A stretch of 64,000 nucleotides of DNA from positions 62,001 to 126,000 of the forward strand of contig JANQSD010000022.1 in assembly GCA_028284225.1 (NCBI GenBank). Direction: 5' to 3'. A program made the position numbers and the translations under genes. Source of the DNA: Arenicellales bacterium (GTDB lineage: Bacteria > Pseudomonadota > Gammaproteobacteria > Arenicellales > JAHEKD01). Below are positions 14,134 through 28,208 of the stretch, in pieces (position 1 is the stretch's first letter; every line of letters begins with the position of its first letter). The notes beneath the pieces were generated by a model, which worked only from the letters and a program-made list of their open reading frames with translations, was not told the DNA's origin and searched no databases.

Positions 14134-15039
14134 TCATTGCCAAAAATGATAAAAATTGAACCATTGCAATGGAGCAATACGACAATATTTTTCGAGCAAA
14201 TGACTAAATTTTTTCATTACAAGTGAAATTTCTTCAGCTCGATGTGTCGGTTGCATATCAATTTTTTCAGCTAAAAAATCAAAATACATGCAATATTGCC
14301 CGTCTTGCTTAAGACAAAATAGTGTGTATACCGGGCAATCCAGTAATCCCGCAAGAATAAACGGGCCTTGTGGAAATTCAGCGGGCTTGTCCAAAAATCG
14401 GATTTTTTCAACCCTGTTGTTTTTACTAACGGGTATTCGGTCAGCGGCCATCACAACAACTTCACCGGATTTACTCTTTTCAAATAATTCGCCTGCAGTG
14501 GCGGGACTGATGTCATTCGCCTGGTAGAAACTAATGTTGTCATGAGAGCGGTACGCATCTAGTAACCGATTAAACTGAACCGCGTGTTCGAGGTGAACAA
14601 TAATATTGATTTTTAGTTTTGGCCTTAATGTAGAAAGATATTGACATACTACAAGATTGCCCAAGTGTGCAGAGAGTAATACAAAACCTCGCCGATTTTC
14701 GATCAGCTCCAAAATATCTGTTTCATTTTGATAATGAACAGTATTGCTGAGGGGTTGATTTATCCAGATTAGAAATTGATCAAGAATAGATTCAGCAAAG
14801 CTTACGAAGTGTTTATAGACCAGTAATAAACCGGGTTTGATACTCTCTGATGATAGAGCCAGTTGATTTAGATATTGTAAAGAAGCACTTCTTGCAGTTC
14901 GTTTAGTAAGAAAATAATAAGCAGCAACAGGATATAAGGCCAAACGAGCTATCGTGTAACCAAATAACTTATACAAGGCAATGATGGTTTTCATGCCTAT
15001 CTTATTGGTCACCTCCTGTTTTTTGTGCCAATCAGTCAT
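14134..15039 (-). CDS. LpxL/HtrB-like acyltransferase of the aryl polyene cluster
   Basis: A 301-residue protein of the lysophospholipid/lipid A acyltransferase superfamily. It has an N-terminal hydrophobic helix, then GFVLLSAHLGNLVV (the H-x4-D-type motif, here His-Leu-Gly-Asn) and VVVMAADRIPVSKNN further on. In many APE clusters this domain is fused to a glycosyltransferase. Here it begins two bases after the glycosyltransferase stop, a split arrangement of the same pair. The start is uncertain: an in-frame GTG about 27 bases downstream lies within AGGAGGTG. Likely role: attaching the polyene to a lipid or sugar anchor at the inner membrane. Confidence 0.75.
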   Translation of the reverse strand: MTDWHKKQEVTNKIGMKTIIALYKLFGYTIARLALYPVAAYYFLTKRTARSASLQYLNQLALSSESIKPGLLLVYKHFVSFAESILDQFLIWINQPLSNTVHYQNETDILELIENRRGFVLLSAHLGNLVVCQYLSTLRPKLKINIIVHLEHAVQFNRLLDAYRSHDNISFYQANDISPATAGELFEKSKSGEVVVMAADRIPVSKNNRVEKIRFLDKPAEFPQGPFILAGLLDCPVYTLFCLKQDGQYCMYFDFLAEKIDMQPTHRAEEISLVMKKFSHLLEKYCRIAPLQWFNFYHFWQ

Positions 15040-15041
15040 GA

Positions 15042-15773
15042 TTAGCGATTGAATATACGTTTTAATAGTTCGCCCAACATTAAAAAAAAGTGCTTAGTAT
15101 GAGCTTTGGAAATTCTTACATTATCCTGCCACATGTCAAAATTGGATGACCCGTCAGCAGGATAAATAACTTTGGTTTCCAGGTTGATAATTCTGATGCT
15201 AGCCCGATAGAGATAAACGATAATCTCTAAATCGAATTCCATTCTACGGCCGATTGAATTTTCGTGAATGACCAATAATGTCTGATCAACTGGGTATACA
15301 CGAAAACCGCACAACACATCGATAATATCAGTCGATAAAGTGTTTATTCTGACCCAAAATGTCGATATTTTACGACCATATAAGCGTGATTTCGGGACGC
15401 TATCATCATATTGTGGAACACCGTTTATCAAGGCCAGAGGATTTTGTCTGGCAGCATCAAGAAACCGGTTTATATCGTTTAAATTATGTTGACCATCCGC
15501 ATCAATTTGCAGCGCGTGGGTGTAATGTTGTTGTTTGGCAAACTCTAATGCTGTGAAAATCGCAGCGCCTTTGCCCTGATTTTTTTCGTGAGTCAGTAAA
15601 TGTATGTTGAATGATCGCGTGAGATTTTCAAGTACCGATGAACAGTTCTGGTTACTGCCATCATTGACTAAAATACAAGGTAAATTTAGCTCAGTGATAC
15701 AGCGGACAGTCGCTTCAATATGATTGCTATGGTTAAAAACCGGAATAATTACACAGGCGGAGAATGGTTCCAT
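15042..15773 (-). CDS. Family 2 glycosyltransferase of the aryl polyene cluster
   Basis: A 243-residue GT-A fold enzyme. It begins SACVIIPVFNHSNHIEATV, then ILVNDGSNQN and HEKNQGKGAAIFTALE, with QIDADGQHN carrying the DxD metal site. It resembles dolichol-phosphate mannose synthase-like enzymes. DVLCGFRVYP and RRMEFDLEIIVYLYR match the APE-cluster subgroup. It probably adds a sugar to the lipid anchor of the polyene. It lies 16 bases after the ligase gene and 2 bases before the acyltransferase gene. Confidence 0.8.
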   Translation of the reverse strand: MEPFSACVIIPVFNHSNHIEATVRCITELNLPCILVNDGSNQNCSSVLENLTRSFNIHLLTHEKNQGKGAAIFTALEFAKQQHYTHALQIDADGQHNLNDINRFLDAARQNPLALINGVPQYDDSVPKSRLYGRKISTFWVRINTLSTDIIDVLCGFRVYPVDQTLLVIHENSIGRRMEFDLEIIVYLYRASIRIINLETKVIYPADGSSNFDMWQDNVRISKAHTKHFFLMLGELLKRIFNR

Positions 15774-15789
15774 TGGTAAGAGAGGTTTA

Positions 15790-17472
15790 TTAATCTGTTA
15801 AAGTATAAAGCAGTTCACCGGAACTAAACGATGTTTGTTCGTTTGTGTAGCTAAAGCGAAACGAATGCTTTTCTTTTTTATGTTCAAGAACAAGCTCTAA
15901 ATATGTCCCTGGTAATATAGGCTTGTTAAATTTTAAGTTTTTTAAATCTCTAATTTCAGTGACGGCATGATTAGCATAGAGTAAATTTAATACCCATCCT
16001 ATTTGTACTACTCCCGGTAATATAGGCAACTGGGGGAAGTGACCATGGAAGTAAGCCAAGTCTCGCGCAACGAAAATTTGGTATGATGTGCTTAATTCGG
16101 ATTCTTCTATCGAAACAATAGATGGATCAGTATTATACGTCGGTGAGTCAAAATAAGTTTCTATTTCAATGGTGTCGATCTTGTGTTGAGCATTACGCGG
16201 AATATTAGCTAAAAAGCGCCAACGTTTTGGCATCATAATCGGGTCAACGACATGGCTTAAACATTGGTTGAGTTGTGTTATTGTAGCTCTGCGCCCATGA
16301 TTTGCCATGAATGTTCTACCCGTTTCACTCAGCGCAATTGCAACGGCAACAATTTGGCGATTCGGCCGGTTAAGCTGAAGCGAAAACGCCTCCTGACATA
16401 ATTCAGACTCGGCAAGATAACCCTCTATTTCCGTGAGGCTGATACGTTTGCCTTCTATTTTCACTATTCTGTCAGCTCGACCTAGCAGATTAAAGGTTCG
16501 GGCTGAGGTTAGTTCAACTTTATCCTGAACCTCAAACCAGTTTGTGTCAGCTAAATAAGGTGACTTAATTTCAAGCAACCCGCTCTCATTTGTTTTGATA
16601 TCAACGTTTTTGAAAGCAGTGTAAGACCGGTTGGGCCCGGTCTGTTGGCGGAAGGCAATGCCTCCGGTCTCTGTGCTTCCATAAATCTCAAACGGATAGA
16701 CATCGAATAATTCTTTGCACATTAAAGCATGGTCATAATCAAGTGGGCTACCCGAAGAGAAAACACAGCTAATAGCTAGCTGATTGTCGGGCCCGGCCTG
16801 TAATCGCTTAAGTTGTGCAGGACTGGTTATCCAGCATAAGTTTCTATTTGTTGCTGGTAGTTCAATAAGCTCATGGTAACAAGGGCTTAAAACTTGTCTT
16901 TGAGTCAAAAGTGGCCACAGCAGCTTGAATAAAAAACCATAAATATGTTGATGTGAAACACCTGAGCAAAATATACAATTTTCGCCTAATTTAGTCTCAA
17001 AGGTATGCTCGAGTTCCTCAACTTCCACTAATAATTGTTGAATATTTTTATAGTATAAAACCGGTTTTCCGGTTGATCCTGAAGTAAAAAAAGCAAGCTG
17101 GACATCATCAGTGGCTAGTGGTTTTTGCCGGATAGATGGTTGGTCCGGCAGTTGTTCAACTGTATCATCGTTACAAAACAAAGCATCATGATTCTTAACA
17201 AAGTTGTTCACAATAGCAGGTAGATTGTTCGGTAATAACACAGGAATTTTTTTAACCTGCCAGGCGCCTAGCACCAAGGCAGCAGCATGGTGAGTGTTAT
17301 TAGTATGTATAGCAACCAGTGGTTCATCGATGTTGCTAAGGAAACTTGAAACACTGTTAACCAAACATCTAAATTCTTGATTAGTGATAACTTCACCGTT
17401 AGTTAGATAGACAACCTGGTCAGACTCATTGTGGTAAAGCGATTGCAGTGCGGTTATGGCATCAAGTTTCAT
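15790..17472 (-). CDS. AMP-dependent acyl-ACP/CoA ligase fused to a hotdog dehydratase (ApeH-ApeI-like)
   Basis: 560 residues with two parts. Residues 1 to about 450 are an adenylate-forming ligase: FFTSGSTGKPVLYYKN is the P-loop, YPFEIYGSTETGGIAFRQ the A5 motif, and LLGRADRIVKIEGKRISLTEIE the hinge region. It should activate the aryl starter acid and load an ACP. Residues about 455-560 carry a FabA/FabZ-like hotdog: ARDLAYFHGHFPQLPILPGVVQIGWV, with the catalytic His. The fusion couples starter loading and a dehydration step. It overlaps the preceding membrane-protein gene by 11 bases. Confidence 0.82.
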   Translation of the reverse strand: MKLDAITALQSLYHNESDQVVYLTNGEVITNQEFRCLVNSVSSFLSNIDEPLVAIHTNNTHHAAALVLGAWQVKKIPVLLPNNLPAIVNNFVKNHDALFCNDDTVEQLPDQPSIRQKPLATDDVQLAFFTSGSTGKPVLYYKNIQQLLVEVEELEHTFETKLGENCIFCSGVSHQHIYGFLFKLLWPLLTQRQVLSPCYHELIELPATNRNLCWITSPAQLKRLQAGPDNQLAISCVFSSGSPLDYDHALMCKELFDVYPFEIYGSTETGGIAFRQQTGPNRSYTAFKNVDIKTNESGLLEIKSPYLADTNWFEVQDKVELTSARTFNLLGRADRIVKIEGKRISLTEIEGYLAESELCQEAFSLQLNRPNRQIVAVAIALSETGRTFMANHGRRATITQLNQCLSHVVDPIMMPKRWRFLANIPRNAQHKIDTIEIETYFDSPTYNTDPSIVSIEESELSTSYQIFVARDLAYFHGHFPQLPILPGVVQIGWVLNLLYANHAVTEIRDLKNLKFNKPILPGTYLELVLEHKKEKHSFRFSYTNEQTSFSSGELLYTLTD

Positions 17473-18022
17473 CTGGCTTAATATACAAATGCCGATATAG
17501 CAATTCCAGTCCCATCAAAGTAAAAATCAATAAATAAGAGATAAGCCCTACATATAAAGTCCATGCCTTAAAACTGCCGAACAATGCGAGTAAAGCCGAA
17601 ATCGTCAGGTTTATAAAAAAAAAGCCGCTCCATACCAAGGTTACATTGCGGGTATAAGCGATAGCCTTAGTTGAAAGGTTAGGCTGTTGCAAACGAGCAA
17701 TACGTTCAATAATGGTGGGTGGATAAATCACAGACCATATAAAAACGAATAACAAACCCAAGTTAATCAGCACCGGATAAAGCTTTAAGACAATAATACT
17801 ATTCATCAAAAACAGTAGCAAAAAGAACAGCACGGCCAAAACTAACAATAATAATTGTTGCTTCATGCTTAGTTTGTCTTTGATGAAGTAATATCGACCC
17901 GCCAGAATCAATAGCAAAAGCAGCCCAAAACTTCGGGTAGATGTATGATCTAATAAAAAATAAACAGCAAAAGGATAGAGCAGAAAAATACAGCTTAAAG
18001 CTGTACTAATGAATTTTTTCAT
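17462..18022 (-). CDS. COG4648-like membrane protein of the aryl polyene cluster
   Basis: A 186-residue inner-membrane protein with about six hydrophobic segments. A conserved VIYPPTIIERIARLQQPNLS loop matches the small membrane protein found next to the AMP-ligase in APE clusters. Its function is unknown; roles in anchoring the synthase or in transfer of product are guesses. It overlaps the upstream ACP gene by four bases and the downstream ligase gene by 11, so translation is coupled. Confidence 0.72.
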   Translation of the reverse strand: MKKFISTALSCIFLLYPFAVYFLLDHTSTRSFGLLLLLILAGRYYFIKDKLSMKQQLLLLVLAVLFFLLLFLMNSIIVLKLYPVLINLGLLFVFIWSVIYPPTIIERIARLQQPNLSTKAIAYTRNVTLVWSGFFFINLTISALLALFGSFKAWTLYVGLISYLLIFTLMGLELLYRHLYIKPDET

Positions 18023-18270
18023 CCTTTGTGGAGTAAATCATACGTTGCATCCACAATATCTGAGACAGTTCTAACTGATTTAAAATCTTCCGGTTTGATT
18101 TTTTTACCTGTCAATTCACGGATGTAAACGACAATGTCGATAGCATCTATACTATCAATATCCAGGTCTTCGTATAATTTTGCATCCATGCTTATCATCT
18201 GTTCGTCAACATCAAACATATCCACGAATATTTCAGATAATTTTGAATATATGTCTTCCCGAGTTTGCAT
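18019..18270 (-). CDS. Acyl carrier protein (APE cluster, second copy)
   Basis: An 83-residue acidic protein with the carrier motif DLDIDSIDAIDIV; the Ser of DSID (about residue 40) receives phosphopantetheine. It is followed by the typical helix 3 region and VRTVSDIVD. It would hold starter or growing polyene chains. Located between the other ACP and the membrane protein in an overlapping operon. Confidence 0.9.
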   Translation of the reverse strand: MQTREDIYSKLSEIFVDMFDVDEQMISMDAKLYEDLDIDSIDAIDIVVYIRELTGKKIKPEDFKSVRTVSDIVDATYDLLHKG

Positions 18271-18288
18271 AGTTGCTTTTAGCGCCAG

Positions 18289-18534
18289 TCAGGTGTTGCT
18301 CTTAATAAACTTGCATAAGGCATCAACCGACGAAAAATGCGCTTTCATATCTTTGTCATCAGATTTAATAATAATGCCGTATTTTTTTTGTAATGCTACG
18401 CCCAGCTCTAATGCATCGATAGAATCAAGACCTAAGCCATCACCAAAAAGCGGTGCGCTGGAATCAATATCATCAACACTGATGTCCTCCAGGTCCATAG
18501 TATCAATGATTAATTGTTTAATTTCGTTATCCAT
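18289..18534 (-). CDS. Acyl carrier protein (APE cluster, first copy)
   Basis: An 81-residue acidic carrier protein with LGLDSIDALELGVAL; the Ser of DSID (about residue 38) is the phosphopantetheine site. Two consecutive but divergent ACPs are usual in APE clusters, one probably for the starter and one for extension. Modification would be by the phosphopantetheinyl transferase at 20623-21351. Confidence 0.9.
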   Translation of the reverse strand: MDNEIKQLIIDTMDLEDISVDDIDSSAPLFGDGLGLDSIDALELGVALQKKYGIIIKSDDKDMKAHFSSVDALCKFIKSNT

Positions 18535-18536
18535 TT

Positions 18537-19331
18537 TTAATCTGGTTTTAGGTTTATTTTAAAATATTCGTATAAACGAGTATTAAATTGCCGTACAGCT
18601 TTGCTTCTTGTGAAATCATCATAGTCTAATTTGGAAAAATGATGTAATTCGCTATCCAGAGTCGAGATTTTAAAACAGAACAATGGTTTTGTTACAGGTA
18701 TTTGATACCATTTTTCTTGCTTTGATAATGTATTTGGGTGACAGCTGATAATGATAGGGACAATATTAGCTTGAGAACGTACTGCTATCTGAGCTGCACC
18801 GCGTTTAAATTTTCCTAATTTTCCCTGACGTCCTCGAGTGCCCTCAGGGAAAATAATTAAAGATTCCCCCTCATTTAAATTATCGACACAATGGTTGATC
18901 AATGCCTTGGGTGTATCATTGCGGATATAGCCTGCCGAATGAACCACGGCACGCGTGAGTGGGTTTCTCCACAGGCCTTGTTTGACGACACAATTTACAT
19001 TTGGCATAAAGCTAATAATAAAAACCACGTCTAGCAAAGTAGGATGATTAGCTAATATCAATGTTCCAGATTGGTTCAATCTATTGATATCGCCCTCAAC
19101 TTTATAGTCCAGGACGCCCATGGACTTCATCATCCAGATAAATGTTTGAAAAGATTTATGGATTACATATCTGGCTGATTCTTTTAATGTAATCAAGGGT
19201 TTAAATAAGTAAAGCACTGGAAATACAATCACACCTAATATCAAACTGCCTAACCCAAAACAAAAAAAACTAAAACCTGTGCCGAACAGCCGCCAAGCGT
19301 AATTCAATTTAGCTGTTAACTGATTGAACAT
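18537..19331 (-). CDS. PlsC-like 1-acylglycerol-3-phosphate acyltransferase (APE cluster)
   Basis: A 264-residue membrane-associated acyltransferase. ILANHPTLLDVVFI is the NHx4D motif with catalytic His and Asp, and IIFPEGTRGRQGKLGKFKRGAAQIA carries the EGTR substrate motif. An N-terminal hydrophobic pair of helices anchors it. In APE clusters a PlsC-like enzyme precedes the ACPs and may move the finished polyene to a lipid. It overlaps the chain-length-factor gene by 16 bases and ends two bases before the first ACP. Confidence 0.83.
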   Translation of the reverse strand: MFNQLTAKLNYAWRLFGTGFSFFCFGLGSLILGVIVFPVLYLFKPLITLKESARYVIHKSFQTFIWMMKSMGVLDYKVEGDINRLNQSGTLILANHPTLLDVVFIISFMPNVNCVVKQGLWRNPLTRAVVHSAGYIRNDTPKALINHCVDNLNEGESLIIFPEGTRGRQGKLGKFKRGAAQIAVRSQANIVPIIISCHPNTLSKQEKWYQIPVTKPLFCFKISTLDSELHHFSKLDYDDFTRSKAVRQFNTRLYEYFKINLKPD

Positions 19332-20062
19332 TGCCAGTTAGTATTAAAAGCGCAGGCGTGGTGACTTTTTTTAGTTTCTAAGGATTCGAAAAATAACTGG
19401 ATTTGTTGCTGATGCTCATTCTTTTGCTTGCATGGTGGTTTATTGCTGGAACAAAAAGAGGCTGAAAAACTTTCACCTTCATAGCTATCGCTGACAACAG
19501 TACACGCTGCGAATACGGAGTAATCACAGGTGTATTCGGCGTGCCTTTGATAAAAATCGGGCAAAAGCGTGTCATAAAAAATAACGCCTACTTTATCTAA
19601 ATAAGGTTGCCTGTTTAATATAGTGATTGCTTCGATTAAAGCAGGCAATACTCCATTGTCACCGGGAGCAATGGCTACTATATCGTTTTGGTTGCCATCG
19701 ATAATGGAAATTATCCCGGCAATAGCATTATGGACCGAGAGGCTAAATGCAGTGGGTGATAATTCATCATCTTCAATCATGGTTTTGAGTAATCGATAAG
19801 TGAGATTTATATTGCCATGGTTAGATGAAAAGACCAGCGGTTGAGTAGTCGTGTTACCGCAACAAGTATAATAGACAGGTAAGATTGCCTTGCCCAAGGT
19901 GTCCAGACGCCTTTTCTGCATCAAGGGCACATTTTTTAAGAATTTTTTGCTATGATCCGAAAAGTTTGAACCAGGGTCGAAACCAATCAGTTTCATAACA
20001 GCCGCATTTTGATCAATGCATGCCATCGAATAAGAAGCGATATTGACTTTAATTTGGTTCAT
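19316..20062 (-). CDS. Beta-ketoacyl synthase-like chain length factor (ApeC-type)
   Basis: A 248-residue protein covering only the N-terminal half of a ketosynthase fold. It contains RRLDTLGKAILP and FSLSVHNAIAGIISI; at the place where active ketosynthases have the nucleophilic Cys this protein has Val-His-Asn-Ala (about 110-113), so it is not catalytic. Such proteins pair with the cluster ketosynthase and influence chain length. It is the first gene of the minus-strand APE operon, divergent from the gene at 20154. Confidence 0.75.
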   Translation of the reverse strand: MNQIKVNIASYSMACIDQNAAVMKLIGFDPGSNFSDHSKKFLKNVPLMQKRRLDTLGKAILPVYYTCCGNTTTQPLVFSSNHGNINLTYRLLKTMIEDDELSPTAFSLSVHNAIAGIISIIDGNQNDIVAIAPGDNGVLPALIEAITILNRQPYLDKVGVIFYDTLLPDFYQRHAEYTCDYSVFAACTVVSDSYEGESFSASFCSSNKPPCKQKNEHQQQIQLFFESLETKKSHHACAFNTNWQCSIS

Positions 20063-20153
20063 AGTATTTAATTCGTGTAAATCATATCCGGATTAAGAAA
20101 CTAAGTCAGAACGTAAAACAGATAGATATAATTTGTAAAATAAGGAGTAAACA

Positions 20154-20585
20154 ATGATTAATCGATTATTCATATTATTTGTTGCATTGGCAATGACTAC
20201 CAGCCTGTATGCCAGAGATGATCGAATAAAATTACCGATTGCCGATGCGATAGGTACAGAAGAGGCAAAATCGAAACTTAATCAAGGAATCAAGTTTGTT
20301 TTTGGTCAAGGGGCTTCAGGAGTGAGTAAAAAATTTGGCAATTTCCAGAGTAATAAAAAAACCAACGCCTTTGGTAAATCCGACCAGGCTGCCTGTAATC
20401 GAGCATTCTTGTCCGCCATGTTGTCGTTTCAGGATCGTGCCGTTCGAGAAGGCGGAAACGCCGTTATTAATATTAAAAGTTATTATAAGCGTAATACTTT
20501 TGTCAGCACCACAGAGTTTGAATGTGGCGCCGGAAACATCATGGCAGGTGTAACGTTTACCGGTGATGTAGTTAAATTAAAGTAA
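20154..20585 (+). CDS. Secreted small protein of the APE cluster (often named 'excinuclease ATPase subunit')
   Basis: 143 residues with a cleavable signal peptide (hydrophobic to about residue 18, ending SLYA-R). The mature part has two cysteines (AACNRAF, FECGAG) and the segment REGGNAVINIKSYYKRN. The database name that I recall for this family is misleading: it has no ATPase motif and is periplasmic. Related genes occur beside APE loci. It heads the plus-strand APE genes; AAGGAG lies 7 bases before its ATG. Confidence 0.65.
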   Translation: MINRLFILFVALAMTTSLYARDDRIKLPIADAIGTEEAKSKLNQGIKFVFGQGASGVSKKFGNFQSNKKTNAFGKSDQAACNRAFLSAMLSFQDRAVREGGNAVINIKSYYKRNTFVSTTEFECGAGNIMAGVTFTGDVVKLK

Positions 20586-20622
20586 TCGATAAATAGCCTT
20601 AAATCAGATAAGCATATCCACT

Positions 20623-21351
20623 TTGTCTGATAAACCCGCCGTTTATTCAGTTATAGCCGGGTTGCCGGAATCACCTGATGAGAGTAGCCCTGAACTGACT
20701 CGAAGTATATTGAGCGAACAGGAAAGTGCTAAATTTGATACGTTGAAAAGTAGTTCAAGACGAAATCAGTTTGTTTTCGCCAGGTATTTACTCAAGCAGG
20801 TGTTAGTATCCCGTTTTAGCTATGACCAGCCCTTGTTGATTACTGAAAACGGAAGGCCCTATGTGCGAGAAAAAACAATCGATATAAGTATTTCACATAG
20901 CCAAAAATGGGTAGCAGTTGTTGTCGGGATAAAAGTACAGGTAGGCATAGATATAGAATACAAAAAGCCGAGGCGGCTTAAAGATTTATATCAGCATGCG
21001 TTTAATAAAGCAGATACAGCCTGGCTGGATTCCACTCAGGCAGCGGATCTTGATACAGAATTTTATCGATTATGGACGGCAAAAGAGGCCATAGCAAAAC
21101 TGACTCAGACTGATCTTATGCCAAGTCTTAAACAATTTTTACTTGAGGGTTACTTTGTTGATCAGGTCGATATGCAACTAAAAAAGACTGATGTATTGAT
21201 TACTTCAAAAAAGCATAAAGATTATTTTCTTTCAATTGCTTATAAAGGCGTTGAGTCTGGTATGGATAGTGTAAATGTCTTTGAGCGAGTTGATGACGAC
21301 TATATTGAAGTTATTCCATCAAGCCCCTTGTCCGTTTACACTTGTGTTTGA
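20623..21351 (+). CDS. 4'-phosphopantetheinyl transferase (Sfp type)
   Basis: 242 residues. RNQFVFARYLLKQVL and ENGRPYV are the early motifs, ISHSQKWVAVVVG and VGIDIEYKK give the first Mg-binding acids, and FYRLWTAKEAIAKL the second. It transfers phosphopantetheine from CoA to the ACPs of this cluster. The start is a TTG at 20623, the best available in the frame; no strong ribosome binding site is visible. The C-terminal 60 residues are less conserved. Confidence 0.86.
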   Translation: MSDKPAVYSVIAGLPESPDESSPELTRSILSEQESAKFDTLKSSSRRNQFVFARYLLKQVLVSRFSYDQPLLITENGRPYVREKTIDISISHSQKWVAVVVGIKVQVGIDIEYKKPRRLKDLYQHAFNKADTAWLDSTQAADLDTEFYRLWTAKEAIAKLTQTDLMPSLKQFLLEGYFVDQVDMQLKKTDVLITSKKHKDYFLSIAYKGVESGMDSVNVFERVDDDYIEVIPSSPLSVYTCV

Positions 21352-21371
21352 ATCAAGGAAACAATTGAAGC

Positions 21372-22898
21372 ATGAATACGCTTAGCTATCATGGACAGCG
21401 ATTATCGATTGAGGATGTTTGTTCAATCGCAAGGTTAGATCAGGACTTTCGATTAAGTGATGCTCCGGATTTTGTAAGCTCGATTAACAAAAGCTTTGAG
21501 TTTTTGGATAATCATCTTAAGCGCGATAACGTCATTTATGGTGTTACAACTGGCTTTGGAGATTCCTGTACTATTAATATCGAAGCTAATCAAATCAACC
21601 AGCTATCAAGTAGCCTGTACCGTTTTCATGGTTGCGGGTTAGGTAAATTTTTTAGCCCTCTCCAAGCACGCGCTATACTAATTACCCGATTGGTCAGCTT
21701 GGCGCAAGGTTATTCGGGTATCAGATACGAGCTGCTAGACAAAATTGCCGAACTACTCAGCAAAAATATTTTGCCCGTCATTCCCGAAGAAGGTTCAGTT
21801 GGCGCCAGTGGTGACTTGACGCCATTATCTTACCTGGCCGCGGTACTTGAAGGTGGTCGACAAGTCTGGTTTGAAGATCGAATCCGTGACACGCAGCAGG
21901 TGTATTCGAAATTGGGAATCACACCGCTGCAGCTTAAACCCAAAGAAACGCTGGCCATCATGAATGGGACATCTGTAATGACTGCATTGGCATGTCTGGC
22001 TTTTACCAAGGCCAATTACCTGAGCCGATTGAGTTGTAGAGTCACATCGCTGGTGTCTATTGCCATGTTGGGTAATCAGTATCATTTTCAAAAACGATTA
22101 TTTGATCTTAAGCCTCATCCTGGACAATCGTTAGCTGCACAACGAATTTTTGATGATTTACAGGGCACCTGGGCCAATCAGCATCAAGTAAGGCTGCAAG
22201 ACAGGTATTCAATCCGCTGTGCACCTCATGTAATCGGTGTGCTTGAAGATGCTTTATCAATGTTCAGGCCTGTAATTGAAACAGAATTAAACAGCACTAA
22301 TGATAATCCTGTCATAGATGCGAGCAGCCAGGCTATTATGCATGGTGGGCATTTTTATGGTGGTCATATTGCGTTTGTGATGGATGCTTTGAAAACTGCG
22401 GTAGCAAATTTAGCAGATTTATTAGACCGTCAACTGGCACAGATTGTCGATGTGAAATTTAATTATGGCTTGTCGGCCAATCTTGCTAATGAATCGATGG
22501 TCAATCATGGCTTTAAAGCCGTACAGATTAGTGTTTCAGCCTGGAGTGCGGAGGCATTAAAGCAGACAATGCCGGCCAGTGTGTTTTCAAGAAGCACTGA
22601 ATGCCATAATCAGGATAAGGTAAGCATGGGAACCATTGCTGCCCGTGATTGCTTACGAGTCATTGAGTTAACTGAACAAGTGGTTGCCGCAATGTTGCTC
22701 GCCACATCGCAAGCCGTTTACTTGCGGGCCAAGGTCGATGATTTAAACGAAAGCGAACTCGCCCGGCCTGTTTGCGATTTTTTGAAAGAATTTAGAGAAA
22801 AGTATCCGTTGTTGACGGAGGATCGCGAATTAGAACAGGAGATGCGGCAGTTAATAACTGAAATTGACCGGCAAAGTTGGGCTCTTTATGAGTATTAA
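21372..22898 (+). CDS. Aromatic amino acid ammonia-lyase (HAL/TAL/PAL family)
   Basis: 508 residues. The MIO cofactor-forming Ala-Ser-Gly is at about 145-147 in EEGSVGASGDLTPL. The catalytic Tyr is in IYGVTTGFG (Tyr56), and TSVMT, SIRCAPHVIGVLED and NSTNDNPVID are the other family blocks. It should deaminate an aromatic amino acid to a cinnamate-type acid that serves as polyene starter. The selectivity pair is Phe85-His86 where HAL has Ser-His, TAL His-Leu and PAL Phe-Leu, so the substrate is not certain. AAGGAA lies upstream of the ATG. It overlaps the thioesterase gene by 11 bases. Confidence 0.85.
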   Translation: MNTLSYHGQRLSIEDVCSIARLDQDFRLSDAPDFVSSINKSFEFLDNHLKRDNVIYGVTTGFGDSCTINIEANQINQLSSSLYRFHGCGLGKFFSPLQARAILITRLVSLAQGYSGIRYELLDKIAELLSKNILPVIPEEGSVGASGDLTPLSYLAAVLEGGRQVWFEDRIRDTQQVYSKLGITPLQLKPKETLAIMNGTSVMTALACLAFTKANYLSRLSCRVTSLVSIAMLGNQYHFQKRLFDLKPHPGQSLAAQRIFDDLQGTWANQHQVRLQDRYSIRCAPHVIGVLEDALSMFRPVIETELNSTNDNPVIDASSQAIMHGGHFYGGHIAFVMDALKTAVANLADLLDRQLAQIVDVKFNYGLSANLANESMVNHGFKAVQISVSAWSAEALKQTMPASVFSRSTECHNQDKVSMGTIAARDCLRVIELTEQVVAAMLLATSQAVYLRAKVDDLNESELARPVCDFLKEFREKYPLLTEDRELEQEMRQLITEIDRQSWALYEY

Positions 22899-23313
22899 GC
22901 TGCCAACTGTAGACATAGAAATAAAAGTGCATTTTTATCATGTCGACCCGATGCAGGTGGTTTGGCATGGAAACTATGTACAGTATTTTGAGCAGGCACG
23001 CTGTGTTTTGCTTGATCAAATTGACTACAACTACCCACAGATGCAAGAGTCAGGTTATATGTGGCCGGTGATCGATATGGCTGTCAGATATGTGGCTCCT
23101 GCGCGATTCGGTCAGATTATTGTAGTTAGTGCAACGATGGTTGAATACGAAAACAGGTTAAAAATTGACTATCGTATCAGTGATAAAAATACCCGCAAAC
23201 GATTAACTAAAGGTCACACCGTACAGGTAGCAGTTGATATTGAAACCCAGGAAATGTGTTTAGCTTCTCCTGATATTCTTTATCAAAAGCTTGGCCTCGG
23301 CATAGACCCGTAA
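22888..23313 (+). CDS. 4HBT/YbgC-like acyl-ACP thioesterase (APE cluster)
   Basis: A 141-residue single hotdog protein. VHFYHVDPMQVVWHGNYVQYFEQAR is the 4-hydroxybenzoyl-CoA thioesterase signature with the catalytic Asp. It may release the finished polyene acid or edit ACPs. The start at ATG 22888 is preferred over a reading that starts eight codons earlier because it begins the domain directly. It overlaps the lyase gene by 11 bases, implying coupled translation. Confidence 0.83.
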   Translation: MSIKLPTVDIEIKVHFYHVDPMQVVWHGNYVQYFEQARCVLLDQIDYNYPQMQESGYMWPVIDMAVRYVAPARFGQIIVVSATMVEYENRLKIDYRISDKNTRKRLTKGHTVQVAVDIETQEMCLASPDILYQKLGLGIDP

Positions 23314-23350
23314 TGATTGATCGGCAGTTCATTAATTCGTTTAGCTTTCT

Positions 23351-24610
23351 ATGAGTAATCCTGACGTACTGATTGTTGGAGCAGGGCCGGCCGGGTCGGT
23401 GGCTGCTTCGATGTTGGTTAACCGGGGCTATAAAGTCACTGTACTTGAGAAAGATAATTTTCCGAGATTTTCGCTGGGCGAGAGTTTATTGCCTTACTCT
23501 ATGCACATGATGAAGGATGCACAATTATTGAATGCTGTAGAACAAGAACGATTCCAGCTTAAAACAGGCGCAATTTTTGTACATAAACAAAAGCAAGCTC
23601 ATTTTTGTTTTGCCGATAAATTTTCGACAGGTATAGGTTATACCTATCAAGTCAAGCGTGCGAGATTTGATCAATTATTAATAGAACAGGCCGCTCATGC
23701 TGGAGCACAGGTTGAATTCGGTCAGCAAATCACAGCTGTTAGTCAAAATGAACACGGTATTAGTCTTAAATCAGTAGACCAACAAGGGCGAATTGTTGAC
23801 TGGCAGGCCAAGTTTGCACTTGATGCCAGTGGATTTGGGCAAGTGTTCGCACGCATGTTTAATTTGCAGGCTGACCCGCAACAAGACAACCGTATGGCTA
23901 TTTTCTCACACTTACAATGTCCTGCCTTAGCCGGGCAGGCAAGAGAGTCGATCTACATTGTTGTCTCGGACTTTGATCCGCAGGTCTGGTATTGGGTGAT
24001 ACCTTTCTCAGATGGTACTTGTTCGGTTGGTGTTGTCGGTAAGACCGGGCTGCTCAGTCACTGGGCAGATTCTGATCAGCAGCGATTGCATTATGCTATT
24101 AACAGTACTGCTTTTTTGAAAAAAACTTTCGGACATGATCCTGAGTTTTTGTTTGAACCTAAATCCATTCAGGCTTATTCGGCCAGTGTCAGCAGCTTGT
24201 TTGGCAAAAAGTTCGCATTGTTAGGCAATGCGGGTGAATTTATTGATCCGATTTTTTCATCAGGTGTAACGATTGCGATGAAGTCGGCACAGTTAGCCAC
24301 TCAATTAGTTGATCGATCTTTTCAAGATGAGTCGGTTAATTGGCACCAAGACTATAGTAAGCCATTGATGTTCGGAGTCGATGTTTTCAAGGCTTTTGTT
24401 GATGCCTGGTATGACGGCCGCTTAATTGATATTGTGTTCAGTCAAGGGCAACATCCGCAGATCAAACAAATGTTATGTTCAATTTTGGCTGGGTATGCCT
24501 GGGATGCAGATAACCCTTACACACAAAATACGGCAAAGCGGCTATCTTCACTGGCAGACCAGATTAAGTTGAATACAGATCTTATACCCAGTGCAGACAC
24601 AGGGGCATGA
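23351..24610 (+). CDS. Flavin-dependent halogenase-like oxidoreductase
   Basis: 419 residues with an N-terminal FAD-binding GAGPAGS (10-16). FPRFSLGESLLP follows, the entry motif of phenol- and tryptophan-halogenase-like flavoproteins. FQLKTGAIF places a Lys at 71 where halogenases have the catalytic Lys. WYWVIP at 213-218 matches WxWxIP, and FIDPIFSSG at 297-305 matches the FxxPxxSxG halogenase motif. These together support halogenation of the aryl head group, as in brominated xanthomonadins, rather than plain hydroxylation, but activity and halide are not proven by sequence. It lies in the APE operon between thioesterase and ketosynthase. Confidence 0.75.
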   Translation: MSNPDVLIVGAGPAGSVAASMLVNRGYKVTVLEKDNFPRFSLGESLLPYSMHMMKDAQLLNAVEQERFQLKTGAIFVHKQKQAHFCFADKFSTGIGYTYQVKRARFDQLLIEQAAHAGAQVEFGQQITAVSQNEHGISLKSVDQQGRIVDWQAKFALDASGFGQVFARMFNLQADPQQDNRMAIFSHLQCPALAGQARESIYIVVSDFDPQVWYWVIPFSDGTCSVGVVGKTGLLSHWADSDQQRLHYAINSTAFLKKTFGHDPEFLFEPKSIQAYSASVSSLFGKKFALLGNAGEFIDPIFSSGVTIAMKSAQLATQLVDRSFQDESVNWHQDYSKPLMFGVDVFKAFVDAWYDGRLIDIVFSQGQHPQIKQMLCSILAGYAWDADNPYTQNTAKRLSSLADQIKLNTDLIPSADTGA

Positions 24611-24621
24611 GGGAGTGATGG

Positions 24622-25803
24622 ATGCAGCGCAATAATACTGTTTATATTAATGCACTAAACTTAGTCTGTGCGCTAGGCAATCATCGCGAGCAGATACAGG
24701 AGCAGGCCGTTCGTGGTCAAACGGGTCTTGCGTTGACAGAATATGCCGCTGATCGTTTTCAGTATCTGGCAAGAATAGCGTCTTCCATTACTGACATTGA
24801 GATTGACAAGAAATTTGATTCTCGTAATAACAGGTTATTGCATACTTGTTTAGAACCTTTGCTTGCTGTTGTTGATGATTTGGTACAGGAATTCGGCCCT
24901 CAACGGATCGGGGTAGTATTAGGAACCAGTACTTCCGGAATAAGTAATGCTGAACAAGCGATCAGACTTACACACCAACTCGGGTCTACCCCTGATAGTT
25001 ATAGTTATCATCAACAGCAAATGTCATCGGTGACTGATTATATTACCCATTTGTTTAATCTTGGTGGCCCAAGTTATACTGTTTCAACCGCTTGTTCATC
25101 GGCAGCCAAGGCACTTATCAGCGCGGCCGAATTAATAAAACTGAATCTTTGTGATGCAGTAATCAGTGGCGGTTGCGATACGCTGTGTCAGATGACGATT
25201 GACGGCTTTGCCTCATTGGATGCAATTTCACCTGAATTATGCGATCCATTCGGCGCGCAGCGCATGGGTACAAACCTTGGTGAAGGCTGCGGTGTTTTTA
25301 TCTTAACCAGAGAAAAGGCAGAAATCACTTTTAATGGTGGAGCCAGTAGTTCGGATGCCTATCATTTTTCAGCGCCTGACCCTAGCGGCAGCGGTGCCAG
25401 CACCGCGATGTCAGAAGCATTGAATGTTGCCGGTCTTGTACCGGAAGATATCGACTATATTAATTTACATGGTACCGGCACTATTCAGAACGACCAAATG
25501 GAAGCAACCGCTATTCACCAAATCTTCGCTAATCCGCCTGTCTGTGGCTCTACCAAATCACTAACGGGTCATACACTTGGTGCAGCGGGAGCTGTTGAAG
25601 CCGCGTTACTTTGTTATACCTTGGTGCAAAACGATAACCACTATTTACCGGCGCATGTGATGCAAAGCGAGTATGACTCATCTTTACCCGATCTGGATTT
25701 GGTTGAAATGGGAAGACAATACGGTCAAATTAATCATTGTATGAGTAACTCTTTTGCCTTTGGTGGAAGTAACAGTTCATTAATTTTTTCAAGAACGGTT
25801 TGA
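24622..25803 (+). CDS. Beta-ketoacyl-ACP synthase (ApeO-like)
   Basis: 393 residues with an intact Cys-His-His triad: Cys158 in STACSSAAKA, His283 in LHGTGT and His317 in TGHTLGAAGA. GAGGGAG lies 8-9 bases before the ATG. It elongates the polyene chain with malonyl units on the ACP, probably with the chain length factor at 19316. It starts 11 bases after the halogenase stop and ends three bases before the dehydratase start. Confidence 0.87.
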   Translation: MQRNNTVYINALNLVCALGNHREQIQEQAVRGQTGLALTEYAADRFQYLARIASSITDIEIDKKFDSRNNRLLHTCLEPLLAVVDDLVQEFGPQRIGVVLGTSTSGISNAEQAIRLTHQLGSTPDSYSYHQQQMSSVTDYITHLFNLGGPSYTVSTACSSAAKALISAAELIKLNLCDAVISGGCDTLCQMTIDGFASLDAISPELCDPFGAQRMGTNLGEGCGVFILTREKAEITFNGGASSSDAYHFSAPDPSGSGASTAMSEALNVAGLVPEDIDYINLHGTGTIQNDQMEATAIHQIFANPPVCGSTKSLTGHTLGAAGAVEAALLCYTLVQNDNHYLPAHVMQSEYDSSLPDLDLVEMGRQYGQINHCMSNSFAFGGSNSSLIFSRTV

Positions 25804-25806
25804 TTG

Positions 25807-26262
25807 ATGCAGTCAATCAGTGAAAATTTAGTTCCCCACGTCGGCAATATGAGCTTGTTGGGCGGGTTAACTGATTTTAGTGAAGATAGTTTGACCGCTA
25901 ACTGCCGAATTCAAGCTGATAATGTATATTTATTAGCCAATAGACTACATAATACTGTGTTGATAGAGTACATGGCCCAAACTATTGCAGCTCATGCCAA
26001 AATGAGTGAGTTGCCAGCCGATGCAACCCAGAAAGCAAAGATTGGATTTTTGCTCGGTGTTAAATTTTTTAAGTGTTCAGCTCATTGGCTGGACATAGGA
26101 ACTCATTTTTCAGTCACTGTAAATCAGGATATTAGAATGGTGACCGGGTTGGCTGTATTTGATTGCCAGGTAAATAGTGATTCGTTTGAAGCTCAAGCCC
26201 GATTAAATGTTTTTCAACCCCCTGATGTTGATGAGTTTTTACAAGAGCTAAAATCCGCATGA
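25807..26262 (+). CDS. Hotdog 3-hydroxyacyl-ACP dehydratase (ApeP-like)
   Basis: 151 residues with a single hotdog fold: NLVPHVGNMSLLGGLTDF near the start holds the His, followed by LIEYMAQTIAAHAKM, the central helix. This matches the DH-like partner in APE clusters that dehydrates the beta-hydroxy intermediate to keep the chain conjugated. ATG 25807 is used, not the TTG one codon before. It overlaps the ketoreductase gene by four bases. Confidence 0.8.
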   Translation: MQSISENLVPHVGNMSLLGGLTDFSEDSLTANCRIQADNVYLLANRLHNTVLIEYMAQTIAAHAKMSELPADATQKAKIGFLLGVKFFKCSAHWLDIGTHFSVTVNQDIRMVTGLAVFDCQVNSDSFEAQARLNVFQPPDVDEFLQELKSA

Positions 26263-26984
26263 AAAAGTCTGTTTTAATCATTGGTGCCAGCGGTAACCTG
26301 GGCAGTGGTATCGCAAAATATCTTGCCGGAAAAGATTATGAGATTGTGGTGCACTATAATAATTCTAAGGATCAGGCTGCTAAACTGGTAGAGTATCTTG
26401 ATTCAGAGAATACCCCAGCCCGCTTATTAAAGCTGGATATCACCAACCCAGAACAATGCCAGCATATCTTGACCAGCGATGTTGAACACCATGGTGCTTA
26501 TTATGGCGTGGTCTTGAGTTCAGGGATTATTCGAGATGCAGCTTTTCCTGCAATGACGGCACAAGAGTGGAGTTCAGTCATTCAGACCAACTTATTCAGC
26601 TTCTATAATGTCCTGAACCCAATAATTATGCCAATGATTAGACGAAAATCACCCGGTCGGATTATTGCTTTGGCATCGGCGTCCGGTGTAATTGGTAATA
26701 GAGGACAGGTTAATTATAGCGCCAGCAAAGGTGGAATCATTAGTGCCTGTAAAGCGTTGGCACTGGAACTGGCCAAGCGAAATATCACTGTGAACTGCGT
26801 GGCACCAGGTGCGATAGAATCGGATATGATTAATCAAAGCGAAATAGGGCATATTAAAGATTTCATTCCAATGCGTCGTTTAGGACAAATTTCGGAAGTC
26901 GCTTCGTTAGTCAGTTATTTACTTTCAGAAGATGCTTCTTATATCACCCGGCAGGTGATTTCGGTAAACGGGGGACTGCATTAA
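26259..26984 (+). CDS. 3-oxoacyl-ACP reductase, FabG-like (ApeQ-like)
   Basis: A 241-residue short-chain reductase: GASGNLGSGIAK is the NADPH site, VLSSGII replaces the usual NNAG, ALASASGVIG holds the Ser and YSASKGG the catalytic Tyr-Lys. PGAIESDM follows. It reduces the beta-keto group formed by the ketosynthases. ATGA overlap with the dehydratase gene and immediate contact with the next ketosynthase gene show coupled translation. Confidence 0.88.
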   Translation: MKKSVLIIGASGNLGSGIAKYLAGKDYEIVVHYNNSKDQAAKLVEYLDSENTPARLLKLDITNPEQCQHILTSDVEHHGAYYGVVLSSGIIRDAAFPAMTAQEWSSVIQTNLFSFYNVLNPIIMPMIRRKSPGRIIALASASGVIGNRGQVNYSASKGGIISACKALALELAKRNITVNCVAPGAIESDMINQSEIGHIKDFIPMRRLGQISEVASLVSYLLSEDASYITRQVISVNGGLH

Positions 26985-28208
26985 ATGACAAGGGTTGTGG
27001 TAACAGGTTTTGCAGCCTTTACGCCTATAGGTAATAACTGGCAAGCGATTGAGGCAAATCTTAAAGCGGGGATCAATGGAGTTGACTATATTCCTGAGTG
27101 GTCGAAATATGCCGGATTAAGTACTTGCTTGGGGGCAGCCGTAAAGCAATTCGAATTACCTGAGCATTACTCACGCAAACGCACACGCAGTATGGGTAGC
27201 GTGTCAAAAATGTCTACCCGTGCTTCGGAGTTAGCGTTGGAACAGGCGGGTTTGATAGGTGAATCCTGCCTCACAGATGGTTCAACCGGGGTCGCATTCG
27301 GTTCGTCCTCTGGCACACCACAGGCCATTGCGGAATTTGGCCGGATGTTATTCAATGAAACGACTCAAGGGTTAAATTCAACTTCTTATATCCGTATGAT
27401 GTCGCATACGGCACTGGTCAATATTTCAGTTTTCTTTAACCTCAAAGGGCGGGCTTACACGACTTCGAGTGCTTGTACATCGGGGAGCCAGGCTATCGGC
27501 TTTGCATATGAAGCGATTAAGAACGGTGATCAGACCATTATGATTGCCGGTGGTTCTGATGAACTTAGCGCCAGCCAGGCGGCTGTGTTTGATACTTTGT
27601 ATGCGACCAGTACCCAAAATGATCAACCTAAAAAAACACCCAGACCGTTCGACCGGGACCGGGATGGTTTAGTAATAGGAGAAGGTGCCGCTACGCTAAT
27701 TCTTGAAAATCGCGATCATGCTTTGGCACGAGGCGCAAAGCCATTGGCAGAGATCGTTGGTTTTAGTACCAACACCGATGGTGTACATATTACCCAACCA
27801 TCTAAGCAAACCATGTCGATTGTAATGGACAATGCCATTAAAACAGCAGCTATTGATAAACAGGATATCGGTTATGTTTCAGCACACGGCACCGCAACTG
27901 CTCAAGGTGACGTCGCTGAAACGCAGGCTACCGCAGATATTTTCGGTTCAAATATTCTGATCAGTGCATTAAAGAGTTATACTGGCCACACGCTGGGTGC
28001 ATGCGGTGCAATGGAGGCCGGTATCGGTATTCAAATGATGAATAGCAATTGGTTTCATCCCACGATCAATCTCGAAAATATAGATCCTGAGTGTGCTGAA
28101 CTTGACTATATAATCGGTAACGGCAAGCAAGCAGAGATTGAGTATTTCATGTCCAATAATTTTGCTTTTGGCGGCATCAATACATCTTTAATATTTAAAC
28201 GAGTTTGA
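26985..28208 (+). CDS. Beta-ketoacyl-ACP synthase (ApeR-like)
   Basis: 407 residues, FabF-like, with triad Cys164 (TSSACTSGSQA), His301 (SAHGTAT) and His335 (YTGHTLGACGA). FDRDRDGLVIGEGAATL is the usual Asp-rich loop. As the second full ketosynthase of the cluster it could initiate or extend the chain. It begins immediately after the ketoreductase stop codon and is the last biosynthetic gene of the plus-strand operon. Confidence 0.87.
   Translation: MTRVVVTGFAAFTPIGNNWQAIEANLKAGINGVDYIPEWSKYAGLSTCLGAAVKQFELPEHYSRKRTRSMGSVSKMSTRASELALEQAGLIGESCLTDGSTGVAFGSSSGTPQAIAEFGRMLFNETTQGLNSTSYIRMMSHTALVNISVFFNLKGRAYTTSSACTSGSQAIGFAYEAIKNGDQTIMIAGGSDELSASQAAVFDTLYATSTQNDQPKKTPRPFDRDRDGLVIGEGAATLILENRDHALARGAKPLAEIVGFSTNTDGVHITQPSKQTMSIVMDNAIKTAAIDKQDIGYVSAHGTATAQGDVAETQATADIFGSNILISALKSYTGHTLGACGAMEAGIGIQMMNSNWFHPTINLENIDPECAELDYIIGNGKQAEIEYFMSNNFAFGGINTSLIFKRV

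Follow-up and report, generated by a model that had tools for sequence, protein, structure and literature searches.

Halogenase genes in aryl polyene (APE) clusters are already in print. Two Xanthomonas clusters hold such a gene, which is reported as absent in Lysobacter, where the pigment is non-brominated (PMC3691225), and a probable halogenase has been noted in aryl polyene clusters of Acetobacteraceae (PMC8776678). Deletion of altN strips the bromine from alterochromides, which are tyrosine-started phenolic polyenes (PMC5577590), and AltN has been described as a flavin-dependent halogenase (PMC7333567). Arcuflavin is given as non-brominated despite the 'halogenase' arcA in its cluster (PMC3949708). 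Flexirubins differ in methylation and chlorination, the C. pinensis flexirubin having the halogen-free formula C43H54O4 (PMC3992019), and the starter of the E. coli APE is 4-hydroxybenzoate (PMC8253772).

Here we describe a flavoprotein gene in an APE cluster of the window, by which we mean the whole 64,000-nucleotide stretch of Arenicellales DNA that was analysed. We propose that its product is probably a FADH2-dependent halogenase acting on the phenolic head of an aryl polyene, to which it would attach chlorine or bromine. The new points are that the protein falls in a clade of its own (clade A), apart from a second APE-linked halogenase clade (clade B), and that clade A and the ring methyltransferase behave as alternatives to each other.

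The described systems resemble this protein in different respects. The Cytophaga hutchinsonii 'flavoprotein/dehydrogenase' 3nix, a structural genomics entry, belongs to the same clade and has the same GNA..EF.DPIFSSG motif, but represents the Bacteroidota branch of clade A; its naming together with a halogenase was not found in the openly licensed literature searched. PltA, Mpy16 and ChlB4 share the Lys, WxWxIP and DPIFSSG while Bmp2 is likened by fold only, and all four differ in having 22-28% identity to the window protein. AltN of the Pseudoalteromonas alterochromide clusters, likened by description, is a flavin halogenase required to brominate a tyrosine-lyase-started phenolic polyene, but it is NRPS-linked. 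ApeB of the E. coli APE fills the ring-tailoring place in sister operons whose other genes are similar, but it is an unrelated, SAM-dependent enzyme. Clade B is APE-linked like clade A, but forms its own clade and has the motif GDA.

The flavoprotein gene and its cluster

The open reading frame is complete from ATG to stop, with exact coordinates (Table 1), and encodes 419 amino acids. All the motifs quoted in the earlier note are present: the Rossmann FAD motif GxGxxG as GAGPAG (residues 10-15), GESLLP (43-48), FxxKxGAxF as FQLKTGAIF (68-76, containing K71), WYWVIP (213-218) and FIDPIFSSG (297-305). This motif set is not a matter of chance, since the protein matches Pfam Trp_halogenase at 77.9 bits (E 9e-22, cut-off 21) and a sequence search of the PDB returns 3nix at E 8.5e-99 and then several halogenases at E 1e-38 to 4e-29. 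Pfam FAD_binding_3 also matches, at 61.6 bits. Taken by themselves, these motifs are not peculiar to the gene.

No NCBIfam halogenase equivalog is reached over its own cut-off, the nearest families, all below theirs, being CmlS, a geranylgeranyl reductase subfamily and QhpG. With 153.5 bits against a cut-off of 900 for the CmlS equivalog (NF033113), the protein is not CmlS, and the LodB, GoxB and QhpG maturases were likewise rejected (96.8 of 400, 70.4 of 400 and 103.2 of 240 bits, respectively). A phage origin was discarded as no match was found among phage records. The gene is the only one of its kind in its genome, where the next protein match has E 0.007. Three genes of this genome have a Flavin_Reduct domain, none of them inside the APE operon.

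The gene follows that of a thioesterase and precedes that of a ketosynthase in an operon-like series within an E. coli-type APE cluster. A divergent arm on the minus strand, from the chain-length factor (CLF) through the LpxL-type acyltransferase, runs opposite to it. The earlier placement of the gene within an APE operon is thus borne out by the presence of ketosynthase, ketoreductase, hotdog dehydratases, two acyl carrier proteins (ACPs), CLF, AMP ligase, acyltransferase and thioesterase.

Table 1. Coordinates in the window of the flavoprotein gene and the genes of its cluster
Feature	Coordinates	Strand	Evidence
LpxL-type acyltransferase	14134..15039	-	PF03279
Family 2 glycosyltransferase	15042..15773	-	PF00535
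AMP-dependent ligase fused to ApeI-type dehydratase	15790..17472	-	PF00501 + PF22818
IspZ/ApeG-like membrane protein	17462..18022	-	40% to E. coli ape membrane gene
Acyl carrier protein	18019..18270	-	PF00550
Acyl carrier protein	18289..18534	-	PF00550
Lysophospholipid-type acyltransferase (ApeD-like)	18537..19331	-	PF01553
Chain-length-factor-like ketosynthase half (ApeC-like)	19316..20062	-	PF13723
4'-phosphopantetheinyl transferase	20623..21351	+	PF01648
Aromatic amino acid ammonia-lyase, motif F85-H86	21372..22898	+	PF00221 522.7 bits
YbgC/FadM-type thioesterase (ApeK-like)	22864..23313	+	PF13279; TIGR00051 64.7 bits
FADH2-dependent halogenase-like protein (clade A)	23351..24610	+	motifs, Pfam, PDB matches, model, tree
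Beta-ketoacyl-ACP synthase (ApeO-like)	24622..25803	+	42% to E. coli ape gene
ApeP-type hotdog dehydratase	25804..26262	+	PF22817 34.1 bits
FabG-like ketoreductase (ApeQ-like)	26259..26984	+	Pfam/NCBIfam match
Beta-ketoacyl-ACP synthase (ApeR-like)	26985..28208	+	59% to E. coli ape gene

The gene order is akin to that of Pseudoalteromonas CF6-2 and E. coli CFT073. The MMPL transporter and DUF3261 genes, adjacent in E. coli, have the flavoprotein gene between them in Pseudoalteromonas, and the E. coli cluster is listed without flavoprotein and lyase and with a methyltransferase (PMC8253772). The AMP ligase and the ApeI-type dehydratase, encoded apart in E. coli and Pseudoalteromonas, share one 560-aa open reading frame in the window. 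The IspZ/ApeG-like membrane protein is 41% identical to a Pseudoalteromonas gene annotated as septation protein IspZ. LolA, MMPL and DUF3261 exporter genes, present in most relatives' clusters, are absent from positions 14134-28208, and a search of the whole window at E 1e-3 gave no match to any of them; for MMPL, the genome has a single weak match (27%), on another contig (G000:C1:148098-149969).

Fold, clades and catalytic residues

An AlphaFold2 model built from a 42-sequence alignment (pLDDT 89.9, pTM 0.90) has 3nix as its top structural match, with Z 55.4, an rmsd of 1.5 over 407 residues and 40% identity. ChlB4 (Z 43.2), PltA (43.0), FasV (42.6), Mpy16 (42.5) and Bmp2 (42.0) follow, then RadH (38.8) and CndH (38.3), giving in all eight halogenase entries at Z 38-43. 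Hydroxylases stand at Z 35.0 and below, with the halogenase CmlS among them at 34.6. The earlier note had proposed a structural comparison with known phenol halogenases; carried out, it puts the model nearest 3nix, then the eight halogenase entries and then the hydroxylases, and this fold, together with the Trp_halogenase and PDB matches, upholds the description as a halogenase-type flavoprotein. A tryptophan halogenase in the strict sense was rejected on the grounds that the nearest structures are pyrrole and phenol types, and a dehydrogenase because this is merely the name attached to 3nix.

PltA, Mpy16 and ChlB4 are pyrrole halogenases working on carrier-bound substrates. Bmp2 is described as another such pyrrole halogenase with a carrier-bound substrate (PMC5577590). 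Carrier-bound pyrrole halogenases thus make up four of the five halogenase entries closest after 3nix, so that an ACP-bound substrate fits the nearest folds, although it is not demonstrated by them.

In a 52-row maximum-likelihood tree, made after leaving out the two LodB-like sequences, two long ones and nine of clade A, the window protein groups with 3nix and 26 relatives in a single clade, clade A, with support 100/100. PltA, Mpy16 and ChlB4 form a further group outside it. Clade B (loci L141-L153, L219-L247 and L279-L298), which includes o_L009, is separate (support 100/98), is about 30% identical to the window protein and keeps the Lys and WFWxIP. Most of the clusters in which it occurs form a divergent APE class, with ketosynthases that resemble those of the window at no more than about 30%. 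Clade A appears, as far as sequence comparison can tell, to be a widespread branch of known halogenases; an activity assay of any of its members was not found in the openly licensed literature searched. The earlier comparison with xanthomonadins calls for amendment, as the two enzymes may not be orthologous: clade B is the halogenase of the divergent APE class, and we infer that the Xanthomonas xanthomonadin halogenase belongs to it. Around a clade-B gene of Variovorax (L255), the 20 kb to either side hold no counterpart of the APE genes seen in the window.

Conservation was read from an alignment of 100 relatives, consisting of 80 named loci (the best 80 of 436 relatives), 18 further loci, L005 and L006. 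K71, G73, F76, R103, W213, W215, I217 and P218 are identical in all 100, as are D299, P300, F302, S303, S304 and G305, while G10, G12 and G15 are each kept in 99, the exceptions being a gap or, in the case of G12, a Cys. The catalytic motifs of clade A are therefore without decay in this alignment. The lysine shared by PltA, Mpy16, ChlB4, CmlS, CndH and FasV falls in the same alignment column as Lys71, which answers the earlier question of whether Lys71 corresponds to the catalytic Lys, and among 21 distant homologues the Lys and W213 are each present in 20. Lys and WxWxIP usually tell halogenases from monooxygenases. In our own comparisons this mark is backed by two LodB-like homologues only, found in 2 of 204 genomes with scores under the LodB curated cut-off, which have Cys at the Lys71 place and are without WxWxIP.

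One position departs from the common pattern. Near the flavin, clade A has GNA for GDA: N293 is Asn in 100/100 relatives, and Asp stands there in 20/21 distant homologues. GDA is found in PltA, Mpy16, ChlB4, CmlS, FasV and CndH, and GNA in 3nix. On our reading, GDA is common in halogenases without defining them, and Trp halogenases vary at this place.

Distribution and separation from the ring methyltransferase

A scan of named genomes, in which the best 80 of 436 relatives were kept as loci and APE genes were sought within about 10 kb, places the relatives of the flavoprotein in APE surroundings. Among these best 80, one or more APE-type genes stand no further than 10 kb away in 79, the one miss being a 3.4-kb contig (L081), and at least three lie nearby in 76, with just one in three others. 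The hosts of these 80 are Shewanella, Cricetibacter, Solimonas, a Neisseriaceae, a Verrucomicrobia and an Archangium assembly, and otherwise Bacteroidota. In 71 of the 80 an ammonia-lyase gene is divergent and within 400 bases, and from hosts and lyase together we read these loci as the flexirubin arrangement. Clade-A relatives occur in APE clusters of Shewanella, Pseudoalteromonas and Cupriavidus as well as beside flexirubin-type lyase genes, and plasmid or chromid records add members from Cupriavidus, Caballeronia, Burkholderia, Acinetobacter, Neisseria and Aureispira.

The best NCBIfam match of the window's lyase is the BagA/FevW tyrosine ammonia-lyase at 414.8 bits, under the cut-off of 1000. 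The selectivity motif is FH in 11 of 12 proteobacterial APE lyases and SH in all 71 flexirubin-type lyases compared. Two chains of one protein differ at the Phe85 site, 2o78 having Phe and 2o6y His, a His-to-Phe change that favours phenylalanine. The F85 of the window's lyase would point to Phe as substrate, and H86 is common to the flexirubin-type SH motif; either Phe or Tyr may be preferred. As to the earlier suggestion that the ring is formed from the lyase product, a lyase is not essential, as it accompanies only 7 of the 16 clade-A regions that hold APE genes (18 regions were examined, two of them without APE genes).

A second survey covered 370 genomes of the same class, with clade A taken as matches with E below 1e-75 (the next match has 1.8e-50). 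Clade A is present in 17, including the window's own, clade B in 32, an ApeB-type methyltransferase in 16 and a PF13723 CLF in 86. The CLF is found in 17/17 clade-A carriers against 86/370 overall (P 4.5e-12, ignoring relatedness), and in 32/32 carriers of clade B; it lies within 50 kb on the same contig for 14 of the 17 and 20 of the 32, respectively. Within this class, clade A is thus confined to carriers of the APE chain-length factor.

Clades A and B are never found in one genome (0/370). The 86 CLF genomes divide into two with both a halogenase of either clade and the methyltransferase, 47 with halogenase only, 13 with methyltransferase only and 24 with neither (Fisher p 2.8e-4, uncorrected for relatedness). 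In each of two genomes where the enzymes meet, G203 (clade A) and G112 (clade B), halogenase and methyltransferase are on different contigs.

The same separation is seen at the level of loci. We compared 70 loci, five of them picked for the CLF only and the others because they hold the methyltransferase or a halogenase of clade A or B; as they were selected by gene content, the counts are not frequencies. None of the 28 clade-A loci has an ApeB-type methyltransferase or clade B, none of the 20 clade-B loci has the methyltransferase, and none of the 16 methyltransferase loci has clade A, one having another halogenase-like gene. The remaining six have none of the three genes, two of them with a halogenase-like match. 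E. coli-type operons among the 70 hold clade A or the methyltransferase, one or the other: L123, L034 and L155 combine lyase and clade A, and L265, whose gene set is the same, pairs its lyase with the methyltransferase, without halogenase. With no locus shared with the methyltransferase or clade B, clade A seems to be one among several ring-tailoring enzymes that can stand in for each other. Common descent of cluster types could account for part of the separation from the methyltransferase, and the flanks taken were only about 10 kb.

Three loci stand against strict exclusivity. L263, an APE-like locus, holds the methyltransferase and a third halogenase-like gene that falls outside the assignment to clades A and B. 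L275 has a halogenase-like match not placed in either clade, and L292 a weak one, the clade-B gene of its genome (G375) lying outside the stretch taken.

Proposed role and alternative readings

The evidence for a halogenase of the APE head is good but falls short of proof. The reading draws on the fold, the motif set, the conservation of Lys71, the APE context, the clade specificity and the separation from the methyltransferase. The varying chlorination of flexirubins (PMC3992019) and the loss of bromine on deletion of altN (PMC5577590) also speak for it, as do the three flavin-reductase-domain genes of the genome, and counting against it are the clade-wide N293, the lack of a flavin reductase in the operon and the halogen-free pigments of related cluster types. 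In the proposed mechanism, a flavin reductase encoded elsewhere would supply FADH2, and the protein would form the flavin hydroperoxide with O2. A halide would open this hydroperoxide to give HOX, which would move to Lys71 as the holder of the halogenating species, and the ring would be halogenated ortho to the hydroxyl, probably with the starter or the polyene on the ACP. HOX/Lys chemistry and FADH2 use are traits of the flavin-dependent halogenase family; the ring position, the ACP-bound substrate and the timing we infer from context.

The same fold could instead serve a hydroxylase or oxidase of the aryl ring or polyene, in which the hydroperoxide would hydroxylate the head group and halide would not be oxidised, and p-hydroxybenzoate hydroxylase-type enzymes are indeed the next structural neighbours (Z about 34). 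Lys71 and WxWxIP, residues that mark halogenases, nevertheless stand in 100/100 aligned relatives, and the eight halogenase entries beat the best hydroxylase by 3-8 Z units. A hydroxylase would suit the possibility that some clade-linked pigments are halogen-free, as described for the C. pinensis flexirubin (PMC3992019), and Phe85 of the lyase makes possible an unhydroxylated ring in need of hydroxylation; in lyase-free clade-A clusters, however, the starter would carry its hydroxyl from the outset, provided that it is the 4-hydroxybenzoate of E. coli (PMC8253772). On balance we regard a hydroxylase as fairly unlikely.

Only a slender chance is given to a FAD-dependent reductase or saturase of the geranylgeranyl-reductase type acting on polyene double bonds: TIGR02032 is the second NCBIfam match and 3oz2 appears at Foldseek rank 36, but the former misses the superfamily cut-off (118.8 against 158.8 bits) and these matches are much weaker than those to halogenases. 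It is also improbable that the halogenase fold has been kept in a cryptic or conditional role, with halide or FADH2 limiting or with drift after the Asp-to-Asn change. N293 in 100/100 aligned relatives and the non-halogenated pigments reported from related cluster types (PMC3992019, PMC3949708) would agree with such a role, against which stand the undecayed catalytic motifs and the existence of chlorinated flexirubins (PMC3992019).

Returning to the halogenase of the phenolic head, a broader and more tentative proposal, to which we give somewhat less than an even chance, is that clade A serves aryl polyenes and flexirubins as a dedicated ring-halogenase cassette, exchangeable with the ring methyltransferase, whose place it takes in operons that are alike in their other genes. 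In that case aryl polyenes with a halogen would occur far more often than the xanthomonadins, some flexirubins and alterochromides known at present suggest, and would include those of Shewanella, Pseudoalteromonas, Acinetobacter, Cupriavidus and Neisseria. If clade A halogenates the heads, a large class of halogenated pigments may so far have been overlooked, and the enzymes of the clade would be new, possibly carrier-linked, phenol halogenases for biocatalysis. As halogenase A, halogenase B and methyltransferase are seldom together, head-group chemistry may become predictable from the genome.

Two sets of records show the lineage in less usual settings. In NZ_CP119142.1 and NZ_CP119140.1 of Neisseria gonorrhoeae, listed as plasmids and of chromosome length, the clade-A match is split in two, so that the gene may be broken. 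A clade-A-like gene of 38% identity (L257:10821-12074) is carried by plasmid pAUEa of Aureispira anguillae, where a gene for an AMP-binding protein and one for an MMPL/acyltransferase/methyltransferase fusion lie nearby.
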